NCBI GenBank assembly: GCA_016873845.1
Contig: VGVX01000025.1
Span: 1 to 34,070 of the forward strand
Source: Ignavibacteria bacterium
Lineage (GTDB): Bacteria > Bacteroidota > Ignavibacteria > Ch128b
Direction: 5' to 3'
DNA length: 34,070 nucleotides
Part shown: positions 18,083 to 32,242 of the stretch, piece by piece
Position numbering within the stretch: position 1 is the first letter of the stretch
Layout of the letters: the number at the start of each line of letters is the position of its first letter
Notes under the pieces: model-generated
The model's input: the letters and a program-made list of their open reading frames with translations, nothing else
Told to the model about the DNA's origin: nothing
The model's database searches: none
Made by a program: the position numbers and the translations under genes

Positions 18083-19900
18083 TTGGAATCTGCTGAAAAA
18101 AATATCTACGCACCGGTAGAAACAACTCCTCTAATTAGCATCTTAAAATCTCTTCCGGATGTAATTTGGTCTTATTCACCAATTGAGAATAGGCTGATTT
18201 TTATAAGTCCTTCTTGCGAAAAGCTCTTGGGATATTCCTCAACCGAATTTTATAATAATAATTCACTTTGGAAGTCAATTCTCGTTGATGAAGATGTTAA
18301 TAAACGCAAATCCGCTATGCTTCAAATCAATGAAGAAAAAGTTGTAGTGGAAACAAATTATCGAATCCGAACCAAGACCGGTGAAATGAAATGGATTAAA
18401 GATATTTTTGTGCCAGTGATAGATGAAAATGATTCCTTAATTCGAGTTGATGGAATAATCAAAGACATTACAGAAGTCATTGAGAAAGAAAATAAATTCA
18501 AGCGGATTTTTAATCTTTCATCGAATCTGATGTTTTTTATCGATTTGAGGGGTAAAGAATTTTATTTTGAAAACGTGAATCGTCAGTTTAGAAAACTATT
18601 AAGATACAGTCCAATTGAGTTGACATCAGTACCGCTTAAAAATTTTGATGACGAAATTATCAGAGCGATAATTCATAATTCAAACACGTGCATGCGCGAG
18701 GGGAAGGAAATCAGGTTTGAGTTTGAATTAAATGACAATTCAAATCCGAAAAACTTCCTTTTCACTCTTACACCTTTTTATCATTCACAAGATGATATTT
18801 CTAAATTAATTGGAACCGGTGAAGATATTACCGAACTCAAAGCCGGAGAAAACCGACTTAAAAAACTTAACGAAGATAAAAATCGACTTTTATCAATCGT
18901 TTCGCATGATCTTAAATCTCCTTTTAATACTATGCTTGGATTCATCGAATTATTATCAAACGATATTGAATTAGAGGAGACTGAAAAATCTGATTATCTA
19001 CGATTCCTTTATGAATCTTCAAAACGGCAAGTGGAACTCATAAATGATTTGCTCGATTGGTCAAAAGTTGAATCAGGTTTACTCGAGTTCTCGCCGAGAT
19101 ATCTTTCTCTTAGAAAAATAATTGATAAAGTCTTAATGAGCTACAAAGGACAGGCATTCCAAAAGAAAATCGAATTTGAAGTAAACATTGATAAACACAT
19201 CCATCTTTTTTTCGATAAGAATTATTCCAAAGTAGTCATTTCGAATTTAATCTCTAATGCTATCAAATTCTCTCACAAAAATGGTAAAATCATCATTTTA
19301 GCTGAGGATGATGATGAATTTATTAAGCTTAAAATTCAAGATTTTGGAATTGGTATTTCTGAAAGATATTTGAAAAATTTATTCGTTTCAAAAGAAAATC
19401 ATTCGAGAACTGGAACTGCTGGAGAAAAAGGGACCGGACTTGGATTGAAGTTATGTTATGATATAATGACAAGCAACCATGGACAGCTTTTAGTCAATTC
19501 ATCTTCGAATGAAGGAACTACAGTTAAGCTGGAATTTCTGAAACCCAAAACCAATATTTTGTATTTCGATGATCATAATTCCACAGGTGAATTAAAGAAA
19601 TTCGCCAACTCGCTCTTACCTGAAAGTTATGTGTTTGTCACATCGGATATTTTCGAAGCAAGTAAATATTCAGAGGAATTTAATGTCCATCTTGCATTTA
19701 TTAATCTAGATGTGATAAGAAATTTTCAAATTGTTTTTCTTTTGAAAGTATTTAATCACCTATTAAGTTCACAGACACCACTGATTGGTCTTGCAGAAAA
19801 TGTTAATGACGACTTTACATCGCTCATGGAGATTCTGCCAATTCAAAAAATCATTCCATCTCATAGCAATATTTCTGATATCATCTCGCTCATAAACTAA
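18083..19900 (+). CDS. Soluble PAS-PAS histidine kinase with receiver-like C-terminus
   Basis: 605 residues, no membrane segment. PAS domain 1 with PAC spans about 17-132, ending VDGIIKDITE. PAS 2 spans about 136-252, ending GTGEDITELK. The dimerisation/phosphoacceptor domain contains SIVSHDLKSPF with His275. The ATP-binding domain has NLISNAIKFS (388-397), DFGIGIS (420-426) and GEKGTGLGL (448-456). Residues 488-605 look like a response-regulator fold: ILYFDD (492-497) gives the acidic pair and LAFINLDV (538-545) the phosphoacceptor strand, but the lysine usually present before the last helix appears replaced (IIPSHS). It starts at a TTG; no in-frame ATG is available. It precedes the polysaccharide cluster and may feed the regulators encoded there. 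Its signal is unknown. Confidence 0.85.
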   Translation: MESAEKNIYAPVETTPLISILKSLPDVIWSYSPIENRLIFISPSCEKLLGYSSTEFYNNNSLWKSILVDEDVNKRKSAMLQINEEKVVVETNYRIRTKTGEMKWIKDIFVPVIDENDSLIRVDGIIKDITEVIEKENKFKRIFNLSSNLMFFIDLRGKEFYFENVNRQFRKLLRYSPIELTSVPLKNFDDEIIRAIIHNSNTCMREGKEIRFEFELNDNSNPKNFLFTLTPFYHSQDDISKLIGTGEDITELKAGENRLKKLNEDKNRLLSIVSHDLKSPFNTMLGFIELLSNDIELEETEKSDYLRFLYESSKRQVELINDLLDWSKVESGLLEFSPRYLSLRKIIDKVLMSYKGQAFQKKIEFEVNIDKHIHLFFDKNYSKVVISNLISNAIKFSHKNGKIIILAEDDDEFIKLKIQDFGIGISERYLKNLFVSKENHSRTGTAGEKGTGLGLKLCYDIMTSNHGQLLVNSSSNEGTTVKLEFLKPKTNILYFDDHNSTGELKKFANSLLPESYVFVTSDIFEASKYSEEFNVHLAFINLDVIRNFQIVFLLKVFNHLLSSQTPLIGLAENVNDDFTSLMEILPIQKIIPSHSNISDIISLIN

Positions 19901-19978
19901 TCCTCAATTTCTTTTCTATTTTTTTTCAATCTGATTTTTTAAACAATTCTCAAAGTGATCATCTCATATTAGAGCAAA

Positions 19979-19999
19979 GTCTCATTTTGAAAAAGTGAC
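19979..19999. promoter_or_regulatory. 21-base dyad upstream of the sigma54-like promoter
   Basis: The inverted repeat has GTC and GAC ends and a TTTT/AAAA core, with eight of ten pairs matching around a central base. It is centred about 45 bases upstream of the -24 element. It could be an enhancer-type site for an NtrC-family activator such as the one at 25784-27169, though such sites are usually somewhat further upstream. Confidence 0.3.
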
Positions 20000-20034
20000 A
20001 TATAGTTATTATCCAAAATTTAATGTTTTTTCAA

Positions 20035-20050
20035 TGGCACACTAGTTGAA
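20035..20050 (+). promoter_or_regulatory. Candidate sigma54 (RpoN) promoter
   Basis: TGGCAC (20035-20040), five bases, then TTGAA (20046-20050). The -24 box is a perfect match to TGGCAC and the spacing is correct for TGGCACn-N4-TTGC. The -12 box reads TTGA instead of TTGC. Transcription would begin near 20060. It is the only such match I found in the window, and a sigma54 activator is encoded in the cluster downstream. Confidence 0.5.
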
Positions 20051-20076
20051 TTTTCTAAGTAAAAACTTAACATAAA

Positions 20077-20349
20077 ATGAAAATTGATAGATATGAAATA
20101 GAAACATTATTTGAACTGGGACTTGGAGACCTGGTTAAAGAGAGAACTTTCACTCATTATTTCTTCCTACAAATCCTTCACTCCCCTCACCAAAAAATAC
20201 TAAGTAACTACTCCTCCTGCACGAGTTTGTGCTCTCCTGAATGCATTGATATTAGAATACCCTCGGGGGAGATATTCTATTATCCGGGAACTGCAGCCAA
20301 TCTCATTGATTGGCCTGCAGTTCATTTATTTCGCACCTCGATTAATTGA
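20077..20349 (+). CDS. Doubtful 90-codon open frame in the leader
   Basis: The first 30 codons (beginning MKIDRYEIETLFELGLGDLV) look like natural protein and begin 16 bases after the predicted sigma54 start, but no ribosome binding site is visible. The later half runs through the hairpins at 20254-20323 and has unusual composition (CTSLCSPECIDIRIPSG), so it is probably not conserved protein sequence. It may be a short leader peptide, a decayed gene or chance. I recognise no family. Confidence 0.2.
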   Translation: MKIDRYEIETLFELGLGDLVKERTFTHYFFLQILHSPHQKILSNYSSCTSLCSPECIDIRIPSGEIFYYPGTAANLIDWPAVHLFRTSIN

Positions 20350-20371
20350 CTTTGAGGGCTTTCCCAGCCCT
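20254..20371 (+). ncRNA. Structured leader or small RNA: three consecutive hairpins
   Basis: Hairpin 1 pairs AGAATA (20254-20259) with TATTCT (20273-20278). Hairpin 2 pairs GAACTGCAGCCAATC (20288-20302) with GATTGG and CTGCAGTTC (20308-20323), a 15-pair stem with one bulged base and a five-base loop. Hairpin 3 pairs AGGGCT (20355-20360) with AGCCCT (20366-20371) exactly. Hairpin 2 shares its GAACTGCAG arm sequence with the terminator stem that follows, so arms can be exchanged between them. No known RNA family is recognised. Confidence 0.5.
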
Positions 20372-20379
20372 TTATCCCG

Positions 20380-20423
20380 GAACTGCAGCGCCTAGCTCCC
20401 TTCGGCTGCAGTTCTCTTTTTTT
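20380..20423 (+). terminator. Strong intrinsic terminator before the polysaccharide genes
   Basis: GAACTGCAGC (20380-20389) and GCTGCAGTTC (20405-20414) form a perfect ten-base-pair stem, followed by TC and seven Ts (20417-20423). It lies about 90 bases before the first glycosyltransferase gene and downstream of the sigma54-like promoter, so it either ends a separate RNA or works as an attenuator. Confidence 0.8.
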
Positions 20424-20515
20424 CCCAAATTGAGATTCTCATTATGAAATTTTTAAAGTTTATACCGATAATAATTAAGTAATAATGGATTTATAAAATA
20501 AACAAAAAGAGTCCA

Positions 20516-21712
20516 ATGGATTTAACATTACTACTTATAGAACTTTTTCTTTTGATAATTTTTACTTACTCAATTGCATTAGCTTTAATGTCATTGCTTT
20601 TCGGTCGAACTGATTCAGAAAAAATTGCACTCTTTGTAGAAAAATTTGCAATCATAATTCCATCTTATAAAGAAGGAGGAGTACTGTTACACAACGTCGA
20701 GTCAATAAAGAAGCAAAATTATCCCTCTGATAAGTATGAAATTTTTATTATTAACGATAGATGTGAATTATCAGTTATTGAAAAGCTTAGAAGTACCGGA
20801 GTAAAAATTATCGATGTGGAATTTAATAGAAGCTCAAAAGTTAAATCGCTTCATGCAGCAGAAAAATACATTGGGGACGAATTCGACTCAGTCATAGTTT
20901 TAGATGCAGACAATTTAATTCATCCTAACTTTTTAGATGAAATTAATTTAAGTCTTGTTAACGGAAACAAAATAGTCCAAGGAAAAAGAATTGCAAAAAA
21001 TCTTGAGACAAATTTCTCTCGGCTGGATTCCCTGACAGATACGTTTTATAATTTTCTTGATAGATATAGTCCTAATAGATTAAAGCTATCTGCAACAATA
21101 AGTGGATCAGGATTTGCGGTTAAGAAAGATTTATTTTTTTCCGTGCTCAAAGAAATAAACGTTTTTGGCGGATTCGACAAAGCGATGCAAATGATTTTAA
21201 TCTGCAGTGGTTATCGCATTAAATTTAGTCCCAATGCTTTAGTATACGATGAGAAAGTTTCTACCTCTGCGGAATTCATAAAACAAAGAAGACGCTGGTT
21301 GTTTGCTCATGCAAAAATGATCTTTAAACATTCAATTAGCATCATGAGATCTTTGCTAACTGATTTTAACCTTGATAAACTTAATCTTTTGTTTATTCAA
21401 TTAAGACCGCCGCTAACCACTATCATTTTATTCACCCTTTCATTTATTTTATATAATTTTATTTCAGGCTTTTACATTATGGCCTTGCTGTGGTTGAGTG
21501 TATTAATTTCTTATGGTTTTTTTCTAATCCTAACAATGATTTTAGACAAGTCAAATATTAAAATTTATTTCACACTATTTACGACGCCAATTCTTTTTGC
21601 GAATCACTTTCTCTCATTATTTGGAATTTACAAAGCATCAGGTGATTCACTTCATACGTCCCACTCATCTTTGAGGAAAATTGAAGAAATTTTATCCGTG
21701 GAGAAGCGTTGA
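20516..21712 (+). CDS. Membrane GT2 glycosyltransferase
   Basis: 398 residues. One N-terminal membrane segment (5-28) is followed by a GT-A domain of family 2: FAIIIPSYKE (44-53), nucleotide-contact Asp81, DADN (130-133) as the metal-binding D-x-D, GGFDKAM (218-224) in place of the more usual acidic catalytic motif, and QRRRW (257-261). Three or four membrane segments follow (about 295-370). This arrangement is that of inner-membrane enzymes which polymerise or extend surface polysaccharides from nucleotide sugars. It is the first gene of the long plus-strand cluster and overlaps the next start by four bases. The sugar is unknown. Confidence 0.85.
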   Translation: MDLTLLLIELFLLIIFTYSIALALMSLLFGRTDSEKIALFVEKFAIIIPSYKEGGVLLHNVESIKKQNYPSDKYEIFIINDRCELSVIEKLRSTGVKIIDVEFNRSSKVKSLHAAEKYIGDEFDSVIVLDADNLIHPNFLDEINLSLVNGNKIVQGKRIAKNLETNFSRLDSLTDTFYNFLDRYSPNRLKLSATISGSGFAVKKDLFFSVLKEINVFGGFDKAMQMILICSGYRIKFSPNALVYDEKVSTSAEFIKQRRRWLFAHAKMIFKHSISIMRSLLTDFNLDKLNLLFIQLRPPLTTIILFTLSFILYNFISGFYIMALLWLSVLISYGFFLILTMILDKSNIKIYFTLFTTPILFANHFLSLFGIYKASGDSLHTSHSSLRKIEEILSVEKR

Positions 21713-22833
21713 ATAAGATCAAGATACTTCACACAATAAGGCAGGCGGATTTCGGCGGCGGCGAAACACACCTTCGCTATCTCATAAACAACTTAGATAA
21801 AAGGAAATTCGAATCAATTATTTTGACCTTTGCTAAAGGCAGTCTTCTTACGGAATTGATGAACAAAGGGATGAAAACATACTGTCTCGAATCGCAAATA
21901 CCTTTTGATTTTAGATTAAGAAATAAGATCAATTCAATTATTGCTGAAGAACAAATTGATATTATTCATGCGCACGGAACAAAAGGCGCATCAAATGTAG
22001 TACTTTGCGCAGCCGTCAACAATCTCCCATTAATTTATACAGTTCATGGCTGGTCAACGCATAAAGGAATTGGAAAAATTAATTTAAAAATCAGGCAAAG
22101 GATTGAAGCTTTCCTATGTAAGAAAGCTGATAGGATTATCTGTGTATCCAAAGCTAATTACAACTCTGCCCCTGTTAATGACAAAACCAATTTCACTGTA
22201 ATATATAATGGAATTGATACTGAAAAATTTTGCGTTAAAAATCGAAACAAAGTGCGGGAGGAACTGAGTATAGAGCGAACAACATTTGTTATTGGATTCC
22301 TCGCCCGTTTAACTCATCAAAAGGATCCATTAACACTTTTGAAAGCGTTTAAGTCGTTAGCTGATAAGAATAACGATATCCAACTCTTAATTGTTGGAGA
22401 GGGAGAACTCCGGAACGAAGTGGTTAAGTTCATAAATAAAAATCATCTAAATGAAAAAGTGATTATTCTTCCCTATCGATCAGATATTGCATATCTTCTT
22501 AATGCAATTGATTGTTACATTCTTCCCTCTCTATGGGAAGGATTGCCTTATGGCTTACTGGAAGCAATGTCTGTTGGCATTCCATCTATCGCATCTAATG
22601 TTGACGGGAACTCAGAAATAATTGACGACAATGTGAATGGATTTCTTATAAAACCTTACGACTACAAGAAAATAGTATCCCTAGTGGAAAGAATTAGAAT
22701 TGATAATAATTTTTATTCTTATATTTCCACAAATGGAAGGCATACAATTGTTTCAAAATTTAATTTGAAACAAATGATAAGTAAAACTGAAGACGTTTAC
22801 TTTAAAATGATGATAAACAAAAAATCAAATTAA
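21709..22833 (+). CDS. GT4-family glycosyltransferase
   Basis: 374 residues with the GT-B fold of family 4. The N-terminal half has the acceptor-side glycine-rich loop QADFGGGETH (12-21) and IIHAHGTKGA. The C-terminal half has GFLARLTHQKDP and the donor-binding E-x7-E region LPSLWEGLPYGLLEAMSVG, with both glutamates present. It starts at a TTG overlapping the previous TGA; GGAG five bases upstream supports this start. It probably adds one sugar to a lipid-linked polysaccharide repeat on the cytoplasmic face of the inner membrane. Confidence 0.88.
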   Translation: MNKIKILHTIRQADFGGGETHLRYLINNLDKRKFESIILTFAKGSLLTELMNKGMKTYCLESQIPFDFRLRNKINSIIAEEQIDIIHAHGTKGASNVVLCAAVNNLPLIYTVHGWSTHKGIGKINLKIRQRIEAFLCKKADRIICVSKANYNSAPVNDKTNFTVIYNGIDTEKFCVKNRNKVREELSIERTTFVIGFLARLTHQKDPLTLLKAFKSLADKNNDIQLLIVGEGELRNEVVKFINKNHLNEKVIILPYRSDIAYLLNAIDCYILPSLWEGLPYGLLEAMSVGIPSIASNVDGNSEIIDDNVNGFLIKPYDYKKIVSLVERIRIDNNFYSYISTNGRHTIVSKFNLKQMISKTEDVYFKMMINKKSN

Positions 22834-22834
22834 C

Positions 22835-24214
22835 TTGTCCGAGATAAAAAAATATTGGTTCCCTAGCGGAATTTACTCTTTCCTCCAAAATGTAGTGCTA
22901 CTAATTTCCGGATTTACGAGCTTTATATTACTTGTTAGATTTTATTCAAAATCTGAATTTGGTGCATGGGCACTTTATCTTGCTGTAACAACATTTGCAG
23001 ATGTAACAAGAAGCGGATTTGTGAACAATGCATTGATTAAATTTAGCACACCAGCAAATAGTGAAGATTACAAGAATATATTAACTGCATCATTATTTTT
23101 ACATTCGGTTATGACACTGTTGGGAATTACTTTGATAATTTTTCTCGCACCAACTCTTGGTAAAGTTTGGGAGAGCAGGGAATTTTATTATCTTTTAATG
23201 CTCTATCCTGCTTATGCAATCTGTCAAGTTCCTCACATTTTCATGTCTGCAGTCGAACAAGCTCGATTCAATTTCCGTGGACAATATTACAGCAACCTTG
23301 TACGTAACTTTATTTTTATTGGAACTATTGCATACTTTACTATTGTTCTTAAATTTCTTCCGCTTTATATGCTTCCAGTTATTCAGGCAATCTCTGTATT
23401 GGGTGCGGGAATTGTCATTTATGTATTTGCTAAGGACTTTTTGAAATTCACGAAAAAAATAAATTGGGATTGGGTTAAAAAATTATATCACTTTGGCAAA
23501 TATGCTCTGGGCGGGAATGTGCTTTCAATACTTTTTACTAATATTGATCAAATTATGCTCGGTTACTTTTTTAATACGACTTATGTTGCTGTTTACAATA
23601 CTGCAATGAGAGTTGGCAATTTTTCTGATATTCCAATGACTTCAGTTGCAACTATCGTTTACCCAAAATCAACTCAAAGATTAAACCAGATTGGTGACAA
23701 ATCATTAAGACATTTGTATGAGCGTTCGGTTGGAGTGATCTTGGCTTTTGTTGTCCCGGGAATAATCGTACTATCAATTTTTTCAAAGGACATCATTCAC
23801 ATTATAGCTTCCCAACGTTATGGAGATGCACTTCCTGTTATTTATTTCATTTTATTGTTTAGTCTGTTTAAACCATTCATCAAGTATTTTGGACTTAGCA
23901 TGGATACGCTCGCGAAGCCAAGCACTCACTTTTGGTTAGTAATGTCTCTATTGGCTTTCAATTTTATACTCAATGTATTTTTAATTCCAACTTACGATTT
24001 AATTGGCGCATCCATTTCATCTTTAATTTCATTATTGATTGGTGCAGCTATTTGTTTTTGGTTCTTAAAAAAAGAATTGGGCGTTAGTATCTTAAGGATT
24101 TTAAAATACATGTTCACTTTTTATTTTGAAGGTATAAGATTGATAGTTGCATTCAATGAATTCAAAGTCTATCTCGATAGTGAAATCAAATCAGAAAATG
24201 GAAGCAACCAATGA
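22835..24214 (+). CDS. Wzx-type polysaccharide flippase (MOP superfamily)
   Basis: 459 residues with about 12-14 membrane segments and the features of polysaccharide exporters: an N-terminal LVRFYSKSEFGAWALYLA and a second repeat beginning YHFGKYALGGNVLSILFTNIDQ-like near residue 220. It would flip undecaprenyl-linked repeat units to the periplasm. The start is a TTG one base after the preceding stop, without a visible ribosome binding site, so it is coupled to the gene before it. No Wzy polymerase or Wza/Wzc export gene is seen in the window; they may lie elsewhere. Confidence 0.85.
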   Translation: MSEIKKYWFPSGIYSFLQNVVLLISGFTSFILLVRFYSKSEFGAWALYLAVTTFADVTRSGFVNNALIKFSTPANSEDYKNILTASLFLHSVMTLLGITLIIFLAPTLGKVWESREFYYLLMLYPAYAICQVPHIFMSAVEQARFNFRGQYYSNLVRNFIFIGTIAYFTIVLKFLPLYMLPVIQAISVLGAGIVIYVFAKDFLKFTKKINWDWVKKLYHFGKYALGGNVLSILFTNIDQIMLGYFFNTTYVAVYNTAMRVGNFSDIPMTSVATIVYPKSTQRLNQIGDKSLRHLYERSVGVILAFVVPGIIVLSIFSKDIIHIIASQRYGDALPVIYFILLFSLFKPFIKYFGLSMDTLAKPSTHFWLVMSLLAFNFILNVFLIPTYDLIGASISSLISLLIGAAICFWFLKKELGVSILRILKYMFTFYFEGIRLIVAFNEFKVYLDSEIKSENGSNQ

Positions 24215-25407
24215 TCAATTCACTAAATGAAAAATCAAACTCATCGATAAATCCATTGGCACATTATCGAAGTGATGAATTAGTAATTATTACCGATTGG
24301 TCGGGAAAAATTGAACTTTATAACAATCTGCTTTCTCAATTATGTAATTCGGCAAACAAGGACGAAATACTGAATGTCAAAGTCAAGATAGATAAACTTT
24401 TCAGAGCTGATGGGATTGATTTTAATAAAGTTTTTAATTCTGTGAATAAACATGGCCATTGGTCAGGAAAATTAATTTTCATTTTAAATTTCAATCAAAT
24501 AATTCCATTTGATGCAAAAGTTTTATTACTCTCTTCAGAGCCGGAATCGAATTTAAAATATCTTTTTAGGCTTGAATTAATTGAAGTGGATGAATTCGAA
24601 CGAGATCCAGTTGCTCAAAGAGATGAGATGCTGCCCATGGATGTGGATTCTTATCTCCTTTCGGTTGAAGATAGCTTTGCAGCAGAACCATACGAAGAAT
24701 TGAAGAGGATGAAAGATGATTTTCTCTCAAGCGTTTCACATGAACTGCGAACTCCACTCGCATCGATAATCGGTTTCACTGAAACAATTAAAAATGATCC
24801 TCAGATGCCGTCAAATGTGAGAGGTGAATTTGTTGATATAATTTTTAATGAAGGGAAGCGTCTTGCCTCGCTGATTAATGACTTGTTAAACATCTCCGAT
24901 CTCGAAAAAAGAAATGTCAAACTTGAATTGAAAGAACATTTAATTAACAATATTGTCACGGCTTCATTTAATAATTACAAATCGATCGCTGATGAAAAAT
25001 ACATCGACTTCAATTTAGTTCTTCCAAATTCTGCCGTAATCTCTTGCGTAGATGCTGAAAAAATTCAACAACTAACCTCAAATCTTATCAGTAACGCTTT
25101 AAAATTTACTCCCACTCGTGGAAAAGTAGTTATAGAATTAAAATCTTCAGAATCTGATTTTATTATTACTATAACTGATACTGGTATTGGAATTCCAAAG
25201 AAAGATTTGAATAGAATATTCAATAAATTTTATCGAGTGTATAGACCGGGCTTTGAGTTTAGAGGAACTGGATTAGGTTTAACTATTTGCCAGGCTATTG
25301 CTCAACTTCATGGCGGAAATATTATCGTGGAAAGTGAGTTAAGCTCTGGAACAACATTCACTGTAAGAATTCCAATTCGACTTGGTGAGGGAAGGAGCAA
25401 AGGATGA
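24211..25407 (+). CDS. Soluble histidine kinase
   Basis: 398 residues, no membrane segment. Residues about 18-128 look like a PAS-type sensor domain (ELVIITDWSGKIELYN). The dimerisation domain has SSVSHELRTPLASIIGF with His177. The ATP-binding domain has NLISNALKFT (291-300), DTGIGIP (323-329) and RGTGLGLTIC (351-360); all are intact. The ATG overlaps the flippase stop (ATGA) and the kinase stop overlaps the next receiver gene in the same way, so kinase and receiver are made in equal amounts. Probable partners are the receiver at 25404 and the sigma54 activator at 25784. Sensing is intracellular. Confidence 0.9.
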   Translation: MINSLNEKSNSSINPLAHYRSDELVIITDWSGKIELYNNLLSQLCNSANKDEILNVKVKIDKLFRADGIDFNKVFNSVNKHGHWSGKLIFILNFNQIIPFDAKVLLLSSEPESNLKYLFRLELIEVDEFERDPVAQRDEMLPMDVDSYLLSVEDSFAAEPYEELKRMKDDFLSSVSHELRTPLASIIGFTETIKNDPQMPSNVRGEFVDIIFNEGKRLASLINDLLNISDLEKRNVKLELKEHLINNIVTASFNNYKSIADEKYIDFNLVLPNSAVISCVDAEKIQQLTSNLISNALKFTPTRGKVVIELKSSESDFIITITDTGIGIPKKDLNRIFNKFYRVYRPGFEFRGTGLGLTICQAIAQLHGGNIIVESELSSGTTFTVRIPIRLGEGRSKG

Positions 25408-25781
25408 AGAGAAAAAAAATTCTACTGGTTGAAGATGAAAAAGCAATTCAAATCTTAATTGTGTACAACCTTAAGAAATTTGGACTCGAGGTTGAGTTGA
25501 AGGAAAATGCAGAATCAGCATTAGAATATCTTAATCATCAAACAGATTATCCTGACTTAATTATTTCCGACGTACTGCTGCCCGGTATGAATGGCGTTAA
25601 CTTCTGCAAGGTATTAAAAAATACTTCAGAAATATCTGAGATCCCCTTCATTCTTCTTTCATCGGTGGATTACGATTTTTATCGGGACGGTGCTGCATCA
25701 GCTGGGGCAGATTTATTCATGACCAAACCATTTAGAATAAAAGATTTTTTAAATGCAATTAATGAGCTAGGAATAAACTAA
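25404..25781 (+). CDS. Single-domain response regulator
   Basis: 125 residues, consisting only of a CheY-like receiver. The acidic pair is at E10-D11, the phosphoacceptor is Asp56 ([13 protein letters not shown]), the switch residue lies in LLSSVD (85-89) and the conserved lysine is Lys108 (MTKPF). A good ribosome binding site (AAGGAG within the kinase end) precedes the ATG. Without an output domain it probably relays phosphate or binds a partner protein. The cognate kinase is most likely the overlapping upstream gene. Confidence 0.92.
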
Positions 25782-25783
25782 AG

Positions 25784-27169
25784 ATGGATGATAAATTAAT
25801 TTTTCTTGTTGACGATGAAGAAAATTTAACTAAACTAATTTCTCATTGGGTTTCCGACAGATGGGGATATCAAATTAAAGTATTTAAAGATGCGAATTCA
25901 TTCTTCTCATATTCAGATACCGAACCAGATTTAGTTTTGCTTGATATTATGCTTCCTGGTACAAATGGAATTGAAATACTGAAAGGTATTAAAGAGAAGA
26001 ATTTCGATCTCCCAGTTGTAATGCTTTCTGCTCAAGGCAACGTTGAAACTGCAATTGAGACATTAAAGCTCGGTGCTTTCGACTATCTATCAAAACCAAT
26101 CGATCTTCCAAAACTTGAAGTCACAATAAAAAATGCCATTAAGAATTATGATCTTGCACGTGAACTAAAAGGTTTATTAGAAGAAAAACAGCGTTCGTAT
26201 AGTTTCGATAACATCATTGCAATTGATAACAAAATGGAAGAAGTTTTCCGTCTCATGCAAAAGGTGTTAAACACATCTGTGAATGTAATAATCTATGGCG
26301 AAAGCGGAACAGGAAAAGAATTGATTGCGAGGGCCATTCATTTCAACAGCGAAAGAAAAAGCGAACCATTTGTTGTAGTTAATTGTGCATCAATTCCGCG
26401 AGATTTGCTCGAGAGCGAACTCTTTGGTCATGAAAAAGGAGCGTTTACAGGTGCACATATTCGCAAAATCGGAAAATTCGAAATGGCTGATGGTGGAACG
26501 ATTTTCCTTGACGAAATTGGCGAGCTTGAGTTAAGTCTGCAATCAAAATTGCTAAGAGTTCTTCAAGATAAAACTTTTGAGCGGGTTGGAGGAACGGAAC
26601 CAATTAAAACCGATGCACGAATTATTTCTGCAACAAATCGTGAATTGAAAAAAGCTGTTGATGAAAAACTTTTCCGAGAAGATCTATATTATCGCCTTTC
26701 AACATATCCGATAACTGTTCCACCGCTAAGAACTCGTAAAGGAGATATTTTGCTTCTCGCTGAGTCATTCACAAAAAAATTTGCCGAAGAAGCGAAAATT
26801 CCAATTCCGACCTTATCCAAACAAGTTATCCAAATTCTTCTTGATTATCCTTGGCCCGGAAATGTTCGGGAACTGGAGAATTCCATTCAGCGTGCTGTGA
26901 TCATTGCAGAAGCAAATCAAATCCAGATGAAAGATCTTCCCCTCCCAATGCAGGCTTTTGCTAGTGAGCAGGTTGTCCCATCGGATGTTTTAATCGAAAG
27001 TGAACAAACAAATGAAATCCTCCCCTTTGAAGTGATAAAAGAAAAAGCGATTCGAAACGCACTTCGAGCGACAAACGGAAGTATTGTTGACGCAGCAAAG
27101 AAACTAAAACTTGGAAGAGCCACTATTTACAGATTAATCAGTAAATATAAAATTGAGGTCAATGATTGA
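25784..27169 (+). CDS. NtrC-family sigma54-dependent response regulator
   Basis: 461 residues with the full three-domain layout. The receiver (1-120) has Asp54 and Lys104. The AAA+ sigma54-activation domain has Walker A GESGTGKE (172-179), the sigma54-contact loop GAFTGA (219-224), Walker [12 protein letters not shown] (237-247) and the [11 protein letters not shown] segment. A Fis-type helix-turn-helix ends the protein ([21 protein letters not shown]). It activates RNA polymerase carrying RpoN from upstream sites. It begins two bases after the receiver gene and overlaps the next glycosyltransferase by four bases. The sigma54-like promoter at 20035 is the obvious candidate target, which would make the cluster self-activating; this is an inference. 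Confidence 0.95.
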
Positions 27170-28416
27170 CCACAATTATAGAGATAGCGTTTTGGGTCTC
27201 AATTTTTTTTGTGTTCTATACATACTTTGGCTATCCACTATTGATGAACGTTTTTATTAGAATTCCTTTGATGAAATACATAATAAAAATGCCTGAGGGC
27301 TTCGGAAGAGTTTTAATTAATCCAAAAATAGGTGGATACGCCGCTTACAAAGATATCTCAGTTGATAAAAATTTTAAGCCGCAAGTTAGTATTATAATTA
27401 CTGCTTATAATGAAGAAGACTATTTAGAAAAAAAAATTAAAAACTGTCTGGAGTTAATTTACCCGACAGATAAAATTGAGTTCTTATTTATCACAGATGG
27501 TTCTACAGACAATTCAAATAGTATAATAGACAAACATCAAACGGATAATCTGCGTTATCTATTTTTTCCGCAGAGACGCGGGAAGCTTCATGCAATGAAG
27601 AGAGGTGTTGAATTCTCGAAAGGTGAAATACTTATCTTTTCCGATGCTAACGCGATCTATAATCCTGATGCTGTTAGAAAAATTGTACGGCATTTTGCTC
27701 ACTCGAAAGTTGGCTGCGTAGCAGGTGAAAAAAGAGTTTCAAAACATGATGGTTCACTGCCATCTGAAGGATTATACTGGAAGTATGAATCTTTTATTAA
27801 ATCATTGGACTCAGAATTATATTCAGTTGTGGGTGCAGCTGGTGAAATTTTTGCGGTTCGAAAAGATCTCTTCCCCGAAATTCCTGAAGATTCAATCATA
27901 GAAGATTTCGTGATTTCACTAAAAATTTCCATAAAAGGATTTCGTGTCGTATATGAACCCGAAGCATATTCTATCGAAACACCTCCGCGGACATTTGTAG
28001 ATGACTTTAAGCGAAGGGTGAGAATAAGCAAAGGAGGGATTCAATCTATCAAATATTTTAATAAGCTGCTGCGGCTCCGCGACCATAAATTTTTATCATT
28101 TCAATTTATCAGCCATCGAGTGTTGAGGTGGGCAATTGCGCCAATTTGTTTATTACTTGCTTTTGTAAGTAATTATTTATTGATTGAGGCGGAAACTAAA
28201 TTTATTTATTCTGAATTGTTTGCAGCTCAACTAATATTTTACGCTGTAGGATTTATTGGATTGATTCACGAGTTCTTGAAACTGAAAATTTCTGGAATAA
28301 ATTTGATTTTTTCTTTTACGTTAATGAATTTAGCAGCGTTGATTGCGCTCTTTTCGTATCCGTTTTCGCGAAGTTCTAATATATGGGAAAAGACGCAGCG
28401 TGAAATTGCAATTTGA
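27166..28416 (+). CDS. Membrane GT2 glycosyltransferase (second)
   Basis: 416 residues. The N-terminal membrane segment is about 3-25. The GT-A domain has [11 protein letters not shown] (74-84), DGSTDNS (111-117), SDANA (159-163) as D-x-D, and IIEDF (244-248) with the catalytic acid. The usual Q-x-x-R-W is replaced by KRRVRIS (282-288). Three or four membrane segments follow (about 320-405). It is an inner-membrane enzyme of the kind that builds surface polysaccharides. It starts at a TTG overlapping the activator stop, with GAGG seven bases upstream. The modified Q-x-x-R-W suggests single-sugar rather than processive transfer, but that is uncertain. Confidence 0.85.
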
Positions 28417-28456
28417 ATTTTTTGAAGAAGTTTTAATAATTAATAAGAGGTAAAAG

Positions 28457-28801
28457 ATGAATTTCATCGAACAGAAAAGAGATAATGTCCTAATCGAGAC
28501 AATTAATATTTCGAGGGCAACACTGAAAGAAGCTGAAGATTTCAAAAACATGCTTATCAAAGCTATTGACGAAGGCGAGAGAAAGATCATTGTTGATTTT
28601 TCTCAATGCGATTTCGTTGATAGTACTTTCTTAGGTGGACTTGTGGTAAGTCTTAAACGAATGACTGCGGTTAAGGGAGACATTCGGTTGGTCGGCTTTC
28701 GTCCTCCTGTACGTTCTATGTTCGAACTCACTCGTATGCATAAAGTTTTTGAGGCGTTCGAATCAGTTGAAGATGCTGTAAATAGTTTTGCCAGCAAATA
28801 A
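28457..28801 (+). CDS. STAS-domain anti-sigma factor antagonist
   Basis: 114 residues forming one SpoIIAA/RsbV-like STAS domain. The phosphorylation-site motif is VDSTFLGGLV (residues about 54-63), where the usual DSSGLG reads DSTFLG; a hydroxyl residue is kept. In partner switching such a protein, when unphosphorylated, binds an anti-sigma kinase; it is reset by a PP2C phosphatase, and one is encoded at 30677. A clear ribosome binding site (AGAGG) precedes the ATG. It lies 40 bases after the glycosyltransferase and is probably on the same transcript. No RsbW-type kinase gene is seen nearby. Confidence 0.88.
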   Translation: MNFIEQKRDNVLIETINISRATLKEAEDFKNMLIKAIDEGERKIIVDFSQCDFVDSTFLGGLVVSLKRMTAVKGDIRLVGFRPPVRSMFELTRMHKVFEAFESVEDAVNSFASK

Positions 28802-28898
28802 CTCTATGCAAACAATTTATAGTGAATTTTATTGAGAACAAGGTGCAGATTTTAATTGTCAAATCGATAAAGCGACATAACTTAAATTTGGCTTTTTA

Positions 28899-30680
28899 AT
28901 GAAAGGATTCATTCTTGGTGCTGGAAGAGGAAAGCGGATTCAGCCACTCTCAAATGAGCTTCCCGCACCGATGCTGCCCATCCTTAATCGCCCCCTCCTG
29001 CTTTACATTATTGAGCATTTAAAAAAATTTGATATCAGAAATATCAAAATAAACCTTCATCACCTTCCTGAATACATTGATTCGTATTTTGAAAGCGGGG
29101 AAAGTTTTGGAGTAGAAATTTCTTATTCACTTGAAAAAAATCTCTTGGGGACAGCTGCTGCTCTTAAGCGAGTTGAAAGTTTTTTTGATGATACAATCTT
29201 AGTCCATGCAGGTAATTGCCTCGCTGACATTGATTTAACCGAACTTCTTTATTTTCACAAAATTAAAAAATCGCCAATCACTTTAGTTCTTGCTGAAAAC
29301 AGTATTAAGGAATTGACTGCAGAATATAATGTGAATTCCAGCGGACAGATTATTAAGAGTAATTTTCGGATTTCAAAAAACGATTCGTTTTATAGTACGA
29401 TTCCAATTGGAATTTATATGGTTGAAAAAGAAATACTAAAATTGGTTCCAAACCAAACTCAATTTAATCTTGAAACCGATCTAATCAATTTGTTGCTGCG
29501 TGAAAAGATAAATCCATATGCTTATTACTTTAAGAAAGATTACTATAGAATTCAGAACCCGAGTGATTTGTTAAACGCAAATATTAAACTTTTAGACGAG
29601 ATTTCACTTGATCAAAATATGTTAATTCATTTGCATGATTCATCAAGTATTCACAAATCTGCTGTTACATCAATCAAGAATCCAATTTTGATTGGCGACA
29701 ATTCTCACATCGGAAAAAATGTAGAGTTTCTCGGTCAAGCTATTATTGGAAATAATGTGCGCATTGACGACGCTGCTGTAATTTCAGATTCTTTAATTCT
29801 TGACGATACCTATGTCGGAAAAAATATTGAAATTAAGAATTCGATTATTTATAAAAATCTTCATTTGAGCATAACGCATGGTTACAGTCTCTATCTTAAT
29901 GATGAGTTTATCATCTCAGAGCAGAAAAAATTTTCTCCTCTATCAACAGTAAAAAAAATCTTTTTCAGAATAATTGATTTTACACTTTCCCTCCTCGCTT
30001 TAATTCTGCTTTCCCCCGTTTTTTTGATTATATCTATTTTAATTAAAATTGATTCTTCCGGCTCAATTTTTTATCACTCAAGGAGAATTCGAAAACCGCA
30101 AATAATTCAAAAGACTGAAAAGTGGTATAAATATCAGCCCGAAAGTATAGTCGAATATTTGAAATTTCGTACTATGATCGTCGATCAAAATCAATATAAA
30201 AGTTCACTCAACGATTTGAATATTTACAATGGCGGACCATTCTTTAAGGCAAAGGACGATCCTCGAATTACTCGAATTGGCAAATTCCTTAGAGCTACAA
30301 GCTTGGATGAGCTTCCATTGCTGATAAATGTACTTAAAGGAGATTTGAGCTTTGTGGGAATTTGGGGATTACCACAAAAGGAAGCTAATGGTTTACAATC
30401 AACCCAAATTGCTGATGGTGATTTTGAAATTTCTGAAACTGCTAAAATCAGATTTAGAGGAAACTTAGGACTTGCAGGATACTGGCAGTCACGAGGACGC
30501 TCGGAACTTTCAGCAGAAGAGAGAATTGTTCACGATGCAATCCAATCACTTTCTGACATAGATGATAAAATTCTCTCAAAACATTTATCGGAGTATAAAA
30601 AAAGTCGTTCTGTTAAAGGTTATATTTCATTAATTTTAGATACCGTTAAATCTGTTTTAAAAAAGAAAGGTTCTTATTGA
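28899..30680 (+). CDS. Nucleotidyltransferase-like domain fused to a phosphoglycosyltransferase
   Basis: 593 residues with three parts. Residues 1-230 follow the sugar-nucleotidyltransferase fold (FILGAGRGKRIQPLS, LGTAAALKR). Residues about 250-325 are left-handed hexapeptide repeats (IGDNSHIGKNV, IIGNNVRI). Residues about 352-590 are a polyprenyl-phosphate phosphoglycosyltransferase: membrane helix FTLSLLALILLSPVFLII, KFRTM (422-426), DDPRITRIG and the catalytic pair D470-E471 in SLDELP. The transferase starts a lipid-linked sugar on the membrane. In the N-terminal domain the catalytic lysine of the P-K-P-M motif is Ala23 and the metal-binding Asp is Asn106 (AGNCLAD), so that half probably no longer makes nucleotide sugars. 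The VGPRP signature reads VGIWGLP. The ATG has no clear ribosome binding site. Confidence 0.85.
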   Translation: MKGFILGAGRGKRIQPLSNELPAPMLPILNRPLLLYIIEHLKKFDIRNIKINLHHLPEYIDSYFESGESFGVEISYSLEKNLLGTAAALKRVESFFDDTILVHAGNCLADIDLTELLYFHKIKKSPITLVLAENSIKELTAEYNVNSSGQIIKSNFRISKNDSFYSTIPIGIYMVEKEILKLVPNQTQFNLETDLINLLLREKINPYAYYFKKDYYRIQNPSDLLNANIKLLDEISLDQNMLIHLHDSSSIHKSAVTSIKNPILIGDNSHIGKNVEFLGQAIIGNNVRIDDAAVISDSLILDDTYVGKNIEIKNSIIYKNLHLSITHGYSLYLNDEFIISEQKKFSPLSTVKKIFFRIIDFTLSLLALILLSPVFLIISILIKIDSSGSIFYHSRRIRKPQIIQKTEKWYKYQPESIVEYLKFRTMIVDQNQYKSSLNDLNIYNGGPFFKAKDDPRITRIGKFLRATSLDELPLLINVLKGDLSFVGIWGLPQKEANGLQSTQIADGDFEISETAKIRFRGNLGLAGYWQSRGRSELSAEERIVHDAIQSLSDIDDKILSKHLSEYKKSRSVKGYISLILDTVKSVLKKKGSY

Positions 30681-32242
30681 CTTCGCAAGAAAAGAAAATA
30701 CTTCTCATTGACGACGATCCGACAATACGAAAATTAATTGCCTATAATTTAAAGAAGGTCGGTTACGGAATTATGGAAGCTGATGGGCCGGATCAAGGAT
30801 TTGTTCATCTAAAAGAAACAACACCTGACTTAGTGCTGTGCGACATAATGATGAGCGGAATGGATGGATTTGATTTTTGCGAAAAAGTCCGTGCTGATGA
30901 AAAATACAAAGCACTCCCCTTTATTTTTGTTTCAGCAAAAAGTTCGATAGAAGATAAATCTAGAGCAGTTGCATTAGGAGCTGATGATTTTATTTCTAAA
31001 CCTTTTATCCTTGAAGAACTACTATTAAAAATAAAATCAGTTTTAAAACGATCAGATATCTATAAATCCTATGGTGCAAAAAAAGTATTCGAAGCGGAAA
31101 CAAAACCATTCAAAGCAAAAGTTTTAATCGTTGACGATGATCCAGCACTTACCCGCTTGCTTGAGAAAAGTCTTACTAAGCAAGAGTATAGTGTTAAGCT
31201 TGCTCACAATACTTTTGACGGATTCAATGCCGCAAAAGAATTTCAACCCGATCTAATTCTTTCTGATATCTTAATGCCAGATGCGGATGGATTTGAGTTC
31301 AAAAAATTGTTATCTGCTGACAGCGGATTGAAGTCAATTCCTTTCGTTTTTCTTACATCAAAAACCGAAGAGGCTGATATTCTTAAGGGTTACGATGTCG
31401 GTGTTCAGGATTATGTTTTAAAAACTTCAGGAATTAATATTGTTGTAGCAAAAGTCTCTGCAATTATTCAATCCGTACAGCGTGAGAGAAAGAAAGTCGT
31501 GGATGAATTGCACCAGGCGGCAGACTCAATTAAAATGAAAGTTGTCCCAGATGCAGCACCTAAATTTAATGGATATGCTGTCGATCAATGGCACAGTGCA
31601 TACCAAGGAATTCCAGGTGGAGATTTTATTGATTATATAAAATTGAACTCTGATACGTATGCAATAGTTTTTGGAGATGTGATGGGTAAAAAATGGGGTG
31701 CCTGGTATTTTGCATTTGCCTATGCAGGTTATATTCGGAGTGCAATTAGATTCGTGGCACATGGAGGCGGAGATGCATTCTCACCTGCTAAAATTATGGA
31801 AAGAGTTAACCGTGCAGTTTATGACGATGCGAAAGTTTCAGAAATTTTTGCCACCCTCTCATTGATCGTCTTGAACACTACAACAAACGAAATGAAATAC
31901 ACAGGTGCTGGTGATCTTCCGGTTCTTTTGAAAAAAGCAAAAACAAATGAGATCGTTAAAGTTGAGTCTGAAGGTTTGCTCTTGGGATTTATAGAACAGA
32001 GCGATTACGAAGATGTTAATATAAAACTTGAACTCAACGACGAGCTTTTACTCTTCACCGATGGAGTTGTTGAAGCAAAAAATGAAAACGGCGAACAATA
32101 TGGACATGATAGAATAACAGAAGTGTATGCGAACAGTAAATCCGATGCTTTCTTAAATGACCTAAAAGAGAAGCTTCTGAATTTTACCAACTTTAAACTT
32201 GATGACGATACAAGTGCGATTTGGATTAAACGAGTAAATTGA
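30677..32242 (+). CDS. REC-REC-PP2C (RsbU/SpoIIE-type) phosphatase
   Basis: 521 residues. Receiver 1 (1-125) has Asp56 and Lys108. Receiver 2 (147-265) has Asp197 and Lys249. Residues about 290-521 are a PP2C-type serine/threonine phosphatase with metal-binding PGGDFIDY (313-320), GDVMG (333-337) and LLLFTDGVVEAKN near the end. Phosphorylation of the receivers probably controls dephosphorylation of a STAS protein, the natural candidate being 28457-28801. It starts at a TTG overlapping the preceding stop. It is the last gene of the run, before a short terminator-like hairpin. The double receiver could integrate two kinases, for example those at 18083 and 24211. Confidence 0.92.
   Translation: MTSQEKKILLIDDDPTIRKLIAYNLKKVGYGIMEADGPDQGFVHLKETTPDLVLCDIMMSGMDGFDFCEKVRADEKYKALPFIFVSAKSSIEDKSRAVALGADDFISKPFILEELLLKIKSVLKRSDIYKSYGAKKVFEAETKPFKAKVLIVDDDPALTRLLEKSLTKQEYSVKLAHNTFDGFNAAKEFQPDLILSDILMPDADGFEFKKLLSADSGLKSIPFVFLTSKTEEADILKGYDVGVQDYVLKTSGINIVVAKVSAIIQSVQRERKKVVDELHQAADSIKMKVVPDAAPKFNGYAVDQWHSAYQGIPGGDFIDYIKLNSDTYAIVFGDVMGKKWGAWYFAFAYAGYIRSAIRFVAHGGGDAFSPAKIMERVNRAVYDDAKVSEIFATLSLIVLNTTTNEMKYTGAGDLPVLLKKAKTNEIVKVESEGLLLGFIEQSDYEDVNIKLELNDELLLFTDGVVEAKNENGEQYGHDRITEVYANSKSDAFLNDLKEKLLNFTNFKLDDDTSAIWIKRVN

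Follow-up and report, generated by a model that had tools for sequence, protein, structure and literature searches.

What occupies the stretch between a sensor kinase gene and the first gene of a polysaccharide cluster in an Ignavibacteria bacterium, and why does it hold two hairpins with the same arms? We analysed the whole stretch of DNA around it, 34,070 nucleotides long (the window). The original prediction, made from the letters of the window, was that two stems about 90 bases apart, with interchangeable arms and ending in a terminator, form either a switch between termination and readthrough into the polysaccharide genes or a stable small RNA. The arms are indeed as described: by sequence counts, both stems have GAACTGCAG on the left and CTGCAGTTC on the right, and the left arms lie 92 nt apart. 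The window holds four copies of GAACTGCAG (20288-20296+, 20315-20323-, 20380-20388+ and 20406-20414-), CTGCAGTTC being read on the forward strand at 20315-20323 and 20406-20414; shuffled windows held a mean of 0.10 copies of GAACTGCAG, and none held four. The hairpin region is more stable on folding than its shuffles (z = -4.98), and the array does end in a terminator-like hairpin (hairpin 2 in Table 1), because a T-tract comes directly after it; a simple terminator scan overlooked this hairpin because its loop is 15 nt long. Nothing at or above the gathering threshold was returned by an Rfam scan of the window, in agreement with the statement that no known RNA family is recognised. No other GAACTGCAG-N4-30-CTGCAGTTC hairpin was found in the window's genome, and the reversed control likewise gave none; a dispersed palindromic (REP-like) repeat was ruled out, a second genomic copy of the hairpin being absent.

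The comparison set comprised six genomes of one Ignavibacteria family (G000, that of the window, to G005), the only ones from which the window's RNA, here called RNA-A, is known. In each of the six, the histidine kinase is followed by the small ORF, hairpin 2 and the glycosyltransferase, in that order, and then, where the contig is long enough, by GT4, a flippase, a kinase, a receiver and the NtrC-type activator. The polysaccharide/signalling cluster as a whole spans 18083-32242, with its order kept across the family; it holds two histidine kinases and the NtrC-type regulator and further includes a STAS protein, a nucleotidyl/sugar transferase fusion and a receiver-SpoIIE phosphatase.

Table 1. 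Features of the RNA-A locus and its surroundings, in window positions.
Feature	Position	Strand	Remarks
PAS histidine kinase	18083..19900	+	Upstream; Pfam HisKA, HATPase_c, PAS; syntenic, 38-41% identity between genera
Two TCTCAT-type repeats	19962..19992 (19962-19974, 19980-19992)		18 bp apart; upstream of the sigma54-type promoter; read from sequence
sigma54-type -24/-12 element TGGCACACTAGTTGAA	20035..20050	+	TGGCAC-N5-TTGA; predicted start of transcription about 20061
Small ORF	20077..20349	+	90 codons, fast-evolving; start and stop kept in family; no Pfam match
C/U-rich motifs	20204..20238	+	CTCCTCCT at 20211-20218, CTCTCCT at 20232-20238; second conservation peak
Small stem AGAATA/TATTCT	20254..20278	+	First element of the original prediction; inside small ORF; from sequence and fold of 20250-20430
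Hairpin 1	20288..20323	+	Arms identical to terminator arms; inside small ORF
Small hairpin just 5' of terminator	20354..20372	+	Folds in all six genomes
Hairpin 2 / terminator	20376..20423	+	CCCGG; stem 20380-20389 with 20405-20414; loop 20390-20404; T-tract 20415-20423
Third TCTCAT-type repeat	20437..20449		Between terminator and glycosyltransferase; similar element in G001
CGATAAT, -10-like element	20466..20472	+	Weak sigma70-like match
Family 2 glycosyltransferase	20516..21712	+	Downstream, first polysaccharide gene; Pfam; 35-41% identity between genera
NtrC-type sigma54 activator	25784..27169	+	Receiver, AAA+ with GAFTGA, HTH_8; Pfam Sigma54_activat E = 1.5e-71

Conservation of the terminator hairpin

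Hairpin 2 is the top conservation peak of the region. Among the six genomes its pairwise identity is 0.78-0.90, against a mean of 0.48, and 31 of 50 alignment columns are invariant, while the two flanking proteins, kinase and glycosyltransferase, reach only 35-41% identity across genera. The 15-nt loop contains CUCCCUUC (20396-20403), which is kept in the family, with the variant CCCCCUUC in G003. The small hairpin just before the terminator has the stems GGGCU/AGCCC, GGGGC/GCCCC, GGGAC/GUCCC (twice), GGGAG/CUCCC and GGAGU/ACUCC in the six genomes; the stem is thus kept while its sequence differs in most of them, which is what the alignment would show under selection on structure. Unlike it, hairpin 2 is under selection on its sequence. 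Compensatory changes, which the original prediction had set as a check, were not found in hairpin 2 among the six genomes, because hairpin 2 hardly varies.

Such strict conservation argues that hairpin 2 does more than terminate transcription, since a hairpin serving termination only would drift like the small one that precedes it. An ordinary terminator of a small-protein gene, conserved in sequence without further function, would fit the T-tract and the position of the hairpin (the ORF stop lies 23-26 nt 5' of CCCGG in all six genomes). It would not readily explain why stem and loop are kept nearly letter for letter while the surrounding proteins and the preceding small hairpin diverge, why the loop is long for the type and matches the theme of the related RNA-B (see below), or why the T-tract is less conserved than the loop. 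We consider this account unlikely.

A hairpin model, R1, gave one strong copy per family genome (E 2e-15 to 3.5e-14); beyond these copies it matched hairpin 1 and, weakly, six other class genomes of 391 scanned. These six were rejected as RNA-A outside the family, two of them (G156 and G182) being RNA-B beside nadA and four lying in other contexts. CM matches with high E (G004:C84, G000:C6, G002:C4, C1, C5 and G005:C1:507858) were also discarded, as they lie in or beside genes and the features are absent. A DNA-pattern scan for the arms in 84,980 species genomes returned 17 stretches, and the YCCCUUC loop occurred in only four records, from Ignavibacteria/Bacteroidetes.

The promoter-like element, the C/U-rich tracts and the small ORF

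We noted that TGGCACACTAGTTGAA has the highest sigma54 consensus score in the 34-kb window, and that each of the six family genomes has TGG[CT]A-N6-TTGA in the corresponding position, where it forms a local conservation peak. The -12 part of TGGCACACTAGTTGAA is TTGA, deviating from TTGC, and the motif count given below hints that the family's sigma54 accepts TTGA at -12. RpoN is encoded in all six genomes, so that the locus combines a spaced -24/-12 element, RpoN in the genome and an AAA+ activator in the cluster. We infer from the sequence that RNA-A is transcribed from this sigma54-type promoter, and the NtrC-type protein of the cluster is the candidate activator; its GAFTGA motif reads GSFTGA in the other genus, and in the four other genomes with a contig extending to it, its orthologues are 67-87% identical. 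The upstream TCTCAT repeats (19962-19992), whose 18-bp-spaced pair has an equivalent in G001, are possible activator-binding sites. TCTCAT-WW-TGA elements were seen to flank the RNA gene on both sides (19962-19992 and 20430-20449 in the window), and also in G001. In a separate count over G000-G005, TGGCAY-N5-TTGM occurred 80 times, mostly with TTGA, versus 34 times for the reversed control.

C-containing pyrimidine tracts are enriched about 4-6 times on the transcribed strand of RNA-A in all six genomes (14.8-22.1 per kb in the RNA versus 2.7-4.9 in the cluster). The second conservation peak is the CUAAGUAACUACUCC stretch within the small ORF, and the loop sequence CUCCCUUC is both kept and predicted to be single-stranded; enriched tracts and an exposed, conserved loop are as expected of C/U-rich seeds. 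Rho-loading sites are C/U-rich tracts too. The C/U-rich, G-poor tracts of RNA-A resemble them, and the hairpin might be a site for an RNA- or DNA-binding protein, the action in either case being in cis, on the mRNA of the small ORF or on the gene that follows. A protein site would account for palindromic CTGCAG arms and for a stem whose sequence is more invariant than base-pairing requires. However, DNA operators do not usually occur as a single copy per genome, conservation extends to the asymmetric loop, and RNA-B retains its loop while its stem varies with compensation. Binding in cis, by a protein or by Rho, thus seems to us quite improbable.

The small ORF is open in all six family genomes (90-109 codons), whereas the remaining two frames of its region hold 3-19 stops, and it is therefore very probably translated. 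A Pfam search of its product gave no match, and structure prediction gave no confident fold (pLDDT 43). Between G000 and G001 it has 32 non-synonymous and 5 synonymous differences (pN/pS 1.79, from few events), and pN/pS among the other four genomes is 0.59-0.72. One could hold that the element is merely the coding sequence of this protein, its RNA features being by-products of codon use, given that frame, start and stop are kept throughout while the other frames are full of stops. We regard this as very improbable: hairpin 2 lies outside the ORF, and constraint on the protein is weaker than on the RNA around the C/U tracts, because amino-acid changes outnumber silent ones within the genus.

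Arm exchange and the proposed transcription unit

Each left arm can, as predicted, pair with either right arm: the local structure has -50.9 kcal/mol and the swapped one -49.3. At this gap of 1.6 kcal/mol, local pairing is favoured in the folding model, with an ensemble swap probability of about 0.017 (~1.7%). Hairpin 1 was found only in G000 and G001, the genus of the window, and is absent from G002-G005; by this distribution it is a genus-specific addition within the small ORF. The AGAATA/TATTCT stem is retained in G001, where it is longer. Downstream, five of the six genomes have CGATAAT 44-52 bp 5' of the start of the glycosyltransferase, however far away the terminator is; in G004 it stays with the glycosyltransferase at 308 bp from the terminator, some 260 bp intervening. 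CGATAAT is likely an independent, -10-like promoter element of the glycosyltransferase, and its tie to that gene argues against readthrough control; an independent promoter here was half of what the original prediction had named as speaking against a switch.

A termination/readthrough switch by partner exchange between hairpins 1 and 2 is, for all the interchangeability of its four arms at so small an energy gap, the least probable of the accounts, as hairpin 1 is missing from four of the six genomes, the glycosyltransferase has a promoter-like element of its own, and the right arm before the T-tract remains paired after the swap, so that the swapped structure contains no antiterminator and termination would go unrelieved. 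Assignment to the riboswitch/attenuator class was rejected as well: this class calls for an antiterminator that excludes the terminator, whereas the terminator arm stays paired on swapping, and hairpin 1 is not conserved.

Our preferred reading, to which we give about an even chance, is that 20061-20423 is a sigma54-type unit that serves both as a small-protein mRNA and as a trans-acting small RNA with C/U-rich seeds. It builds on what the comparison of genomes reveals, namely conservation, a promoter-like element, the ORF, C/U enrichment, synteny and a related class-wide RNA. For transcription, activator, base-pairing in trans and targets, we propose the following. The stretch from about 20061 to 20423 would be one transcription unit, with a predicted RNA of about 360-405 nt in the family. 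Its promoter would probably answer to an NtrC-type activator, and the prime candidate is the protein encoded in the polysaccharide cluster. The transcript would encode a small, fast-evolving protein and close with the terminator hairpin of near-invariant stem and 15-nt loop. The loop CUCCCUUC and the other C/U-rich tracts may then act as single-stranded seeds that pair with G-rich, Shine-Dalgarno-like stretches of mRNAs, the candidate partners of the loop seed being mRNA leaders with GAAGGGAG-like stretches; with such seeds, the terminator-proximal part would have the role of a regulatory small RNA, in the form of the full-length transcript or of a fragment from its 3' end. Several points speak against this reading. 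The T-tract is poor in G003, G004 and G005, and the polysaccharide cluster yielded no target of the loop that is conserved. In the window, clear Shine-Dalgarno sequences are confined to few genes, and an anti-Shine-Dalgarno mode would therefore reach only a subset of mRNAs.

Set against the original prediction, these results support its small-RNA half better than its switch half. Conservation, the sigma54-type promoter, the C/U tracts and the class-wide relative speak for a small RNA, though in a different and richer form than was proposed; the arms were seen correctly, the switch falls away, and the informative parts, namely the small ORF, the promoter and the loop, had been overlooked.

RNA-B and the likeness to known systems

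RNA-B came to light through three weak hits that the hairpin model gave in relatives. It is a distinct conserved unit in which a sigma54-like element is followed by about 85 nt with repeated C-rich motifs and by a terminator hairpin with the loop UUUGCCCUCCAC. A model, R2, built from five RNA-B sequences and no RNA-A sequence, matches 86 of 391 class genomes at E<=0.1; the copy in the window's own genome is L112 (G000:C38:10863-10909(-)). Upstream of each of the 30 best R2 matches, at a distance of 54-139 nt, lies a sigma54-like element (score at least 7, versus 47 of 600 shuffles); the weaker matches are mixed, some of those inspected having the element and others not. The stem covaries, both partners being changed in 8 of 10 pairs, a count reached by 0 of 500 shuffles and far above the slid controls; these counts lean towards R2's own structure, and a five-sequence MAFFT alignment made before the model already has three compensated pairs. 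An Rfam scan of the RNA-B loci gave no match. With a covarying stem, a C-rich loop and a sigma54-like element upstream, RNA-B has, as far as sequences can tell, the hallmarks of a true small RNA family, and it is probably a more important find than RNA-A. Among the 30 best matches (L104-L133) the left neighbour is nadA in 13 and a putative sensor histidine kinase (MKMTGGPASMNIKL type, the identity being taken from the copies inspected) in 11.

RNA-B resembles RNA-A in its sigma54-like promoter, C/U-rich tracts, C-rich-loop terminator hairpin and AACUGC/GCAGUU outer stem. It differs in the loop (GCCCUC), in the covarying stem, in that no ORF was noticed, and in its spread over many families of the class, where it is often divergent from nadA or placed after a sensor kinase. 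On the six RNA-A loci (50 kb) R2 gave E = 1.1e-4 (G003), 0.0024, 0.0032, 0.013 (the window), 0.09 and 2.1 (G005), a weak match, and its genome scan picked RNA-A only in G003 (E = 0.0057). We read the two RNAs as having a common architecture and perhaps common descent; homology rests on this weak match, and the likeness could be convergence. Although RNA-A would operate in the manner of RNA-B, we do not file it under RNA-B because its promoter-hairpin gap of about 340 nt, versus 54-139 nt, and its 90-codon ORF set it apart. A third conserved hairpin RNA, RNA-C, was seen in one genus (L134, G004:C42:14625-14671 -; L135, G005:C2:223153-223199 -; L136, G002:C46:20019-20066 -). Its anti-Shine-Dalgarno repeats CCUCCUCCUUAGACCUCCUU are near-perfect and its loop CCCUCCUC is C-rich; within 160 nt of it, no sigma54 site was found. 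Tandem RNA-B-like hairpins with the loop UUGUGCCCUCUACC, about 110 nt apart and without a sigma54 site, occur at L152 (G279:C89:32801-32949) and L153 (G221:C51:36614-36767).

Tentatively, RNA-B may represent class-wide, sigma54-controlled small RNAs with anti-Shine-Dalgarno-like C/U loops, and RNA-A a paralogue that acquired or evolved the gene of a small protein and came to control extracellular polysaccharide under an NtrC-type regulator; the arrangement would parallel Qrr, but outside Proteobacteria. If this is true, Ignavibacteria possess a layer of post-transcriptional control that is driven by sigma54 and has C/U-rich seeds, and one of its branches is located at the exopolysaccharide cluster. 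The sigma54 link predicts when the RNAs are produced, which opens the way to a test in a cultivated relative with a copy of RNA-B; models and loci of both RNAs are ready for use. A literature search for a characterised small RNA in Ignavibacteria found none.

RNA-A and RNA-B are both new to Rfam, and the kind to which RNA-A belongs is already known from other systems. The 'cuckoo' RNAs carry a C-rich anti-Shine-Dalgarno motif in their loops. Among them, ccaF1-CcsR1-4 of Rhodobacter sphaeroides (CIN1 loci) is one precursor RNA with a coding and a small RNA part, which demonstrates that a small-protein mRNA can bear hairpin small RNAs at its 3' end; like RNA-A, it combines an alternative-sigma promoter, a small-protein gene, hairpin small RNA(s) and a terminator (PMC10253847). 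Its promoter is RpoHI/RpoHII and its protein DUF1127, whereas RNA-A has a sigma54-type promoter and a product with no Pfam match, and CUCCCUUC of RNA-A lies within the terminator loop itself. In the alpha-r14 small RNAs (NfeR1), C/U anti-Shine-Dalgarno motifs silence mRNAs, and NfeR1 shares with RNA-A such motifs in unpaired form, differing stems and a link to NtrC signalling (PMC10746234). Unlike RNA-A, NfeR1 is NtrC-repressed, lacks a sigma54 signature and carries its motif CCUCCUCCC in three hairpins, no ORF being described in the source passages. RepG of Helicobacter pylori uses a C/U-rich terminator loop as the seed that binds a G-rich mRNA leader and affects surface polysaccharide, and so provides a published precedent for the loop of RNA-A as a seed (PMC8295292). 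It comes from an unrelated organism, and the source passages describe neither sigma54 nor a small ORF. By the Rfam scan, Qrr sequences are unrelated to RNA-A and RNA-B. Qrr RNAs are ORF-less and Hfq-dependent, and SypG belongs to a symbiosis-polysaccharide system. In Vibrio fischeri, Qrr1 is a sigma54-dependent small RNA activated by the NtrC-type SypG, and there, as we propose for RNA-A, an NtrC-type protein drives a small RNA through sigma54 (PMC10162802).
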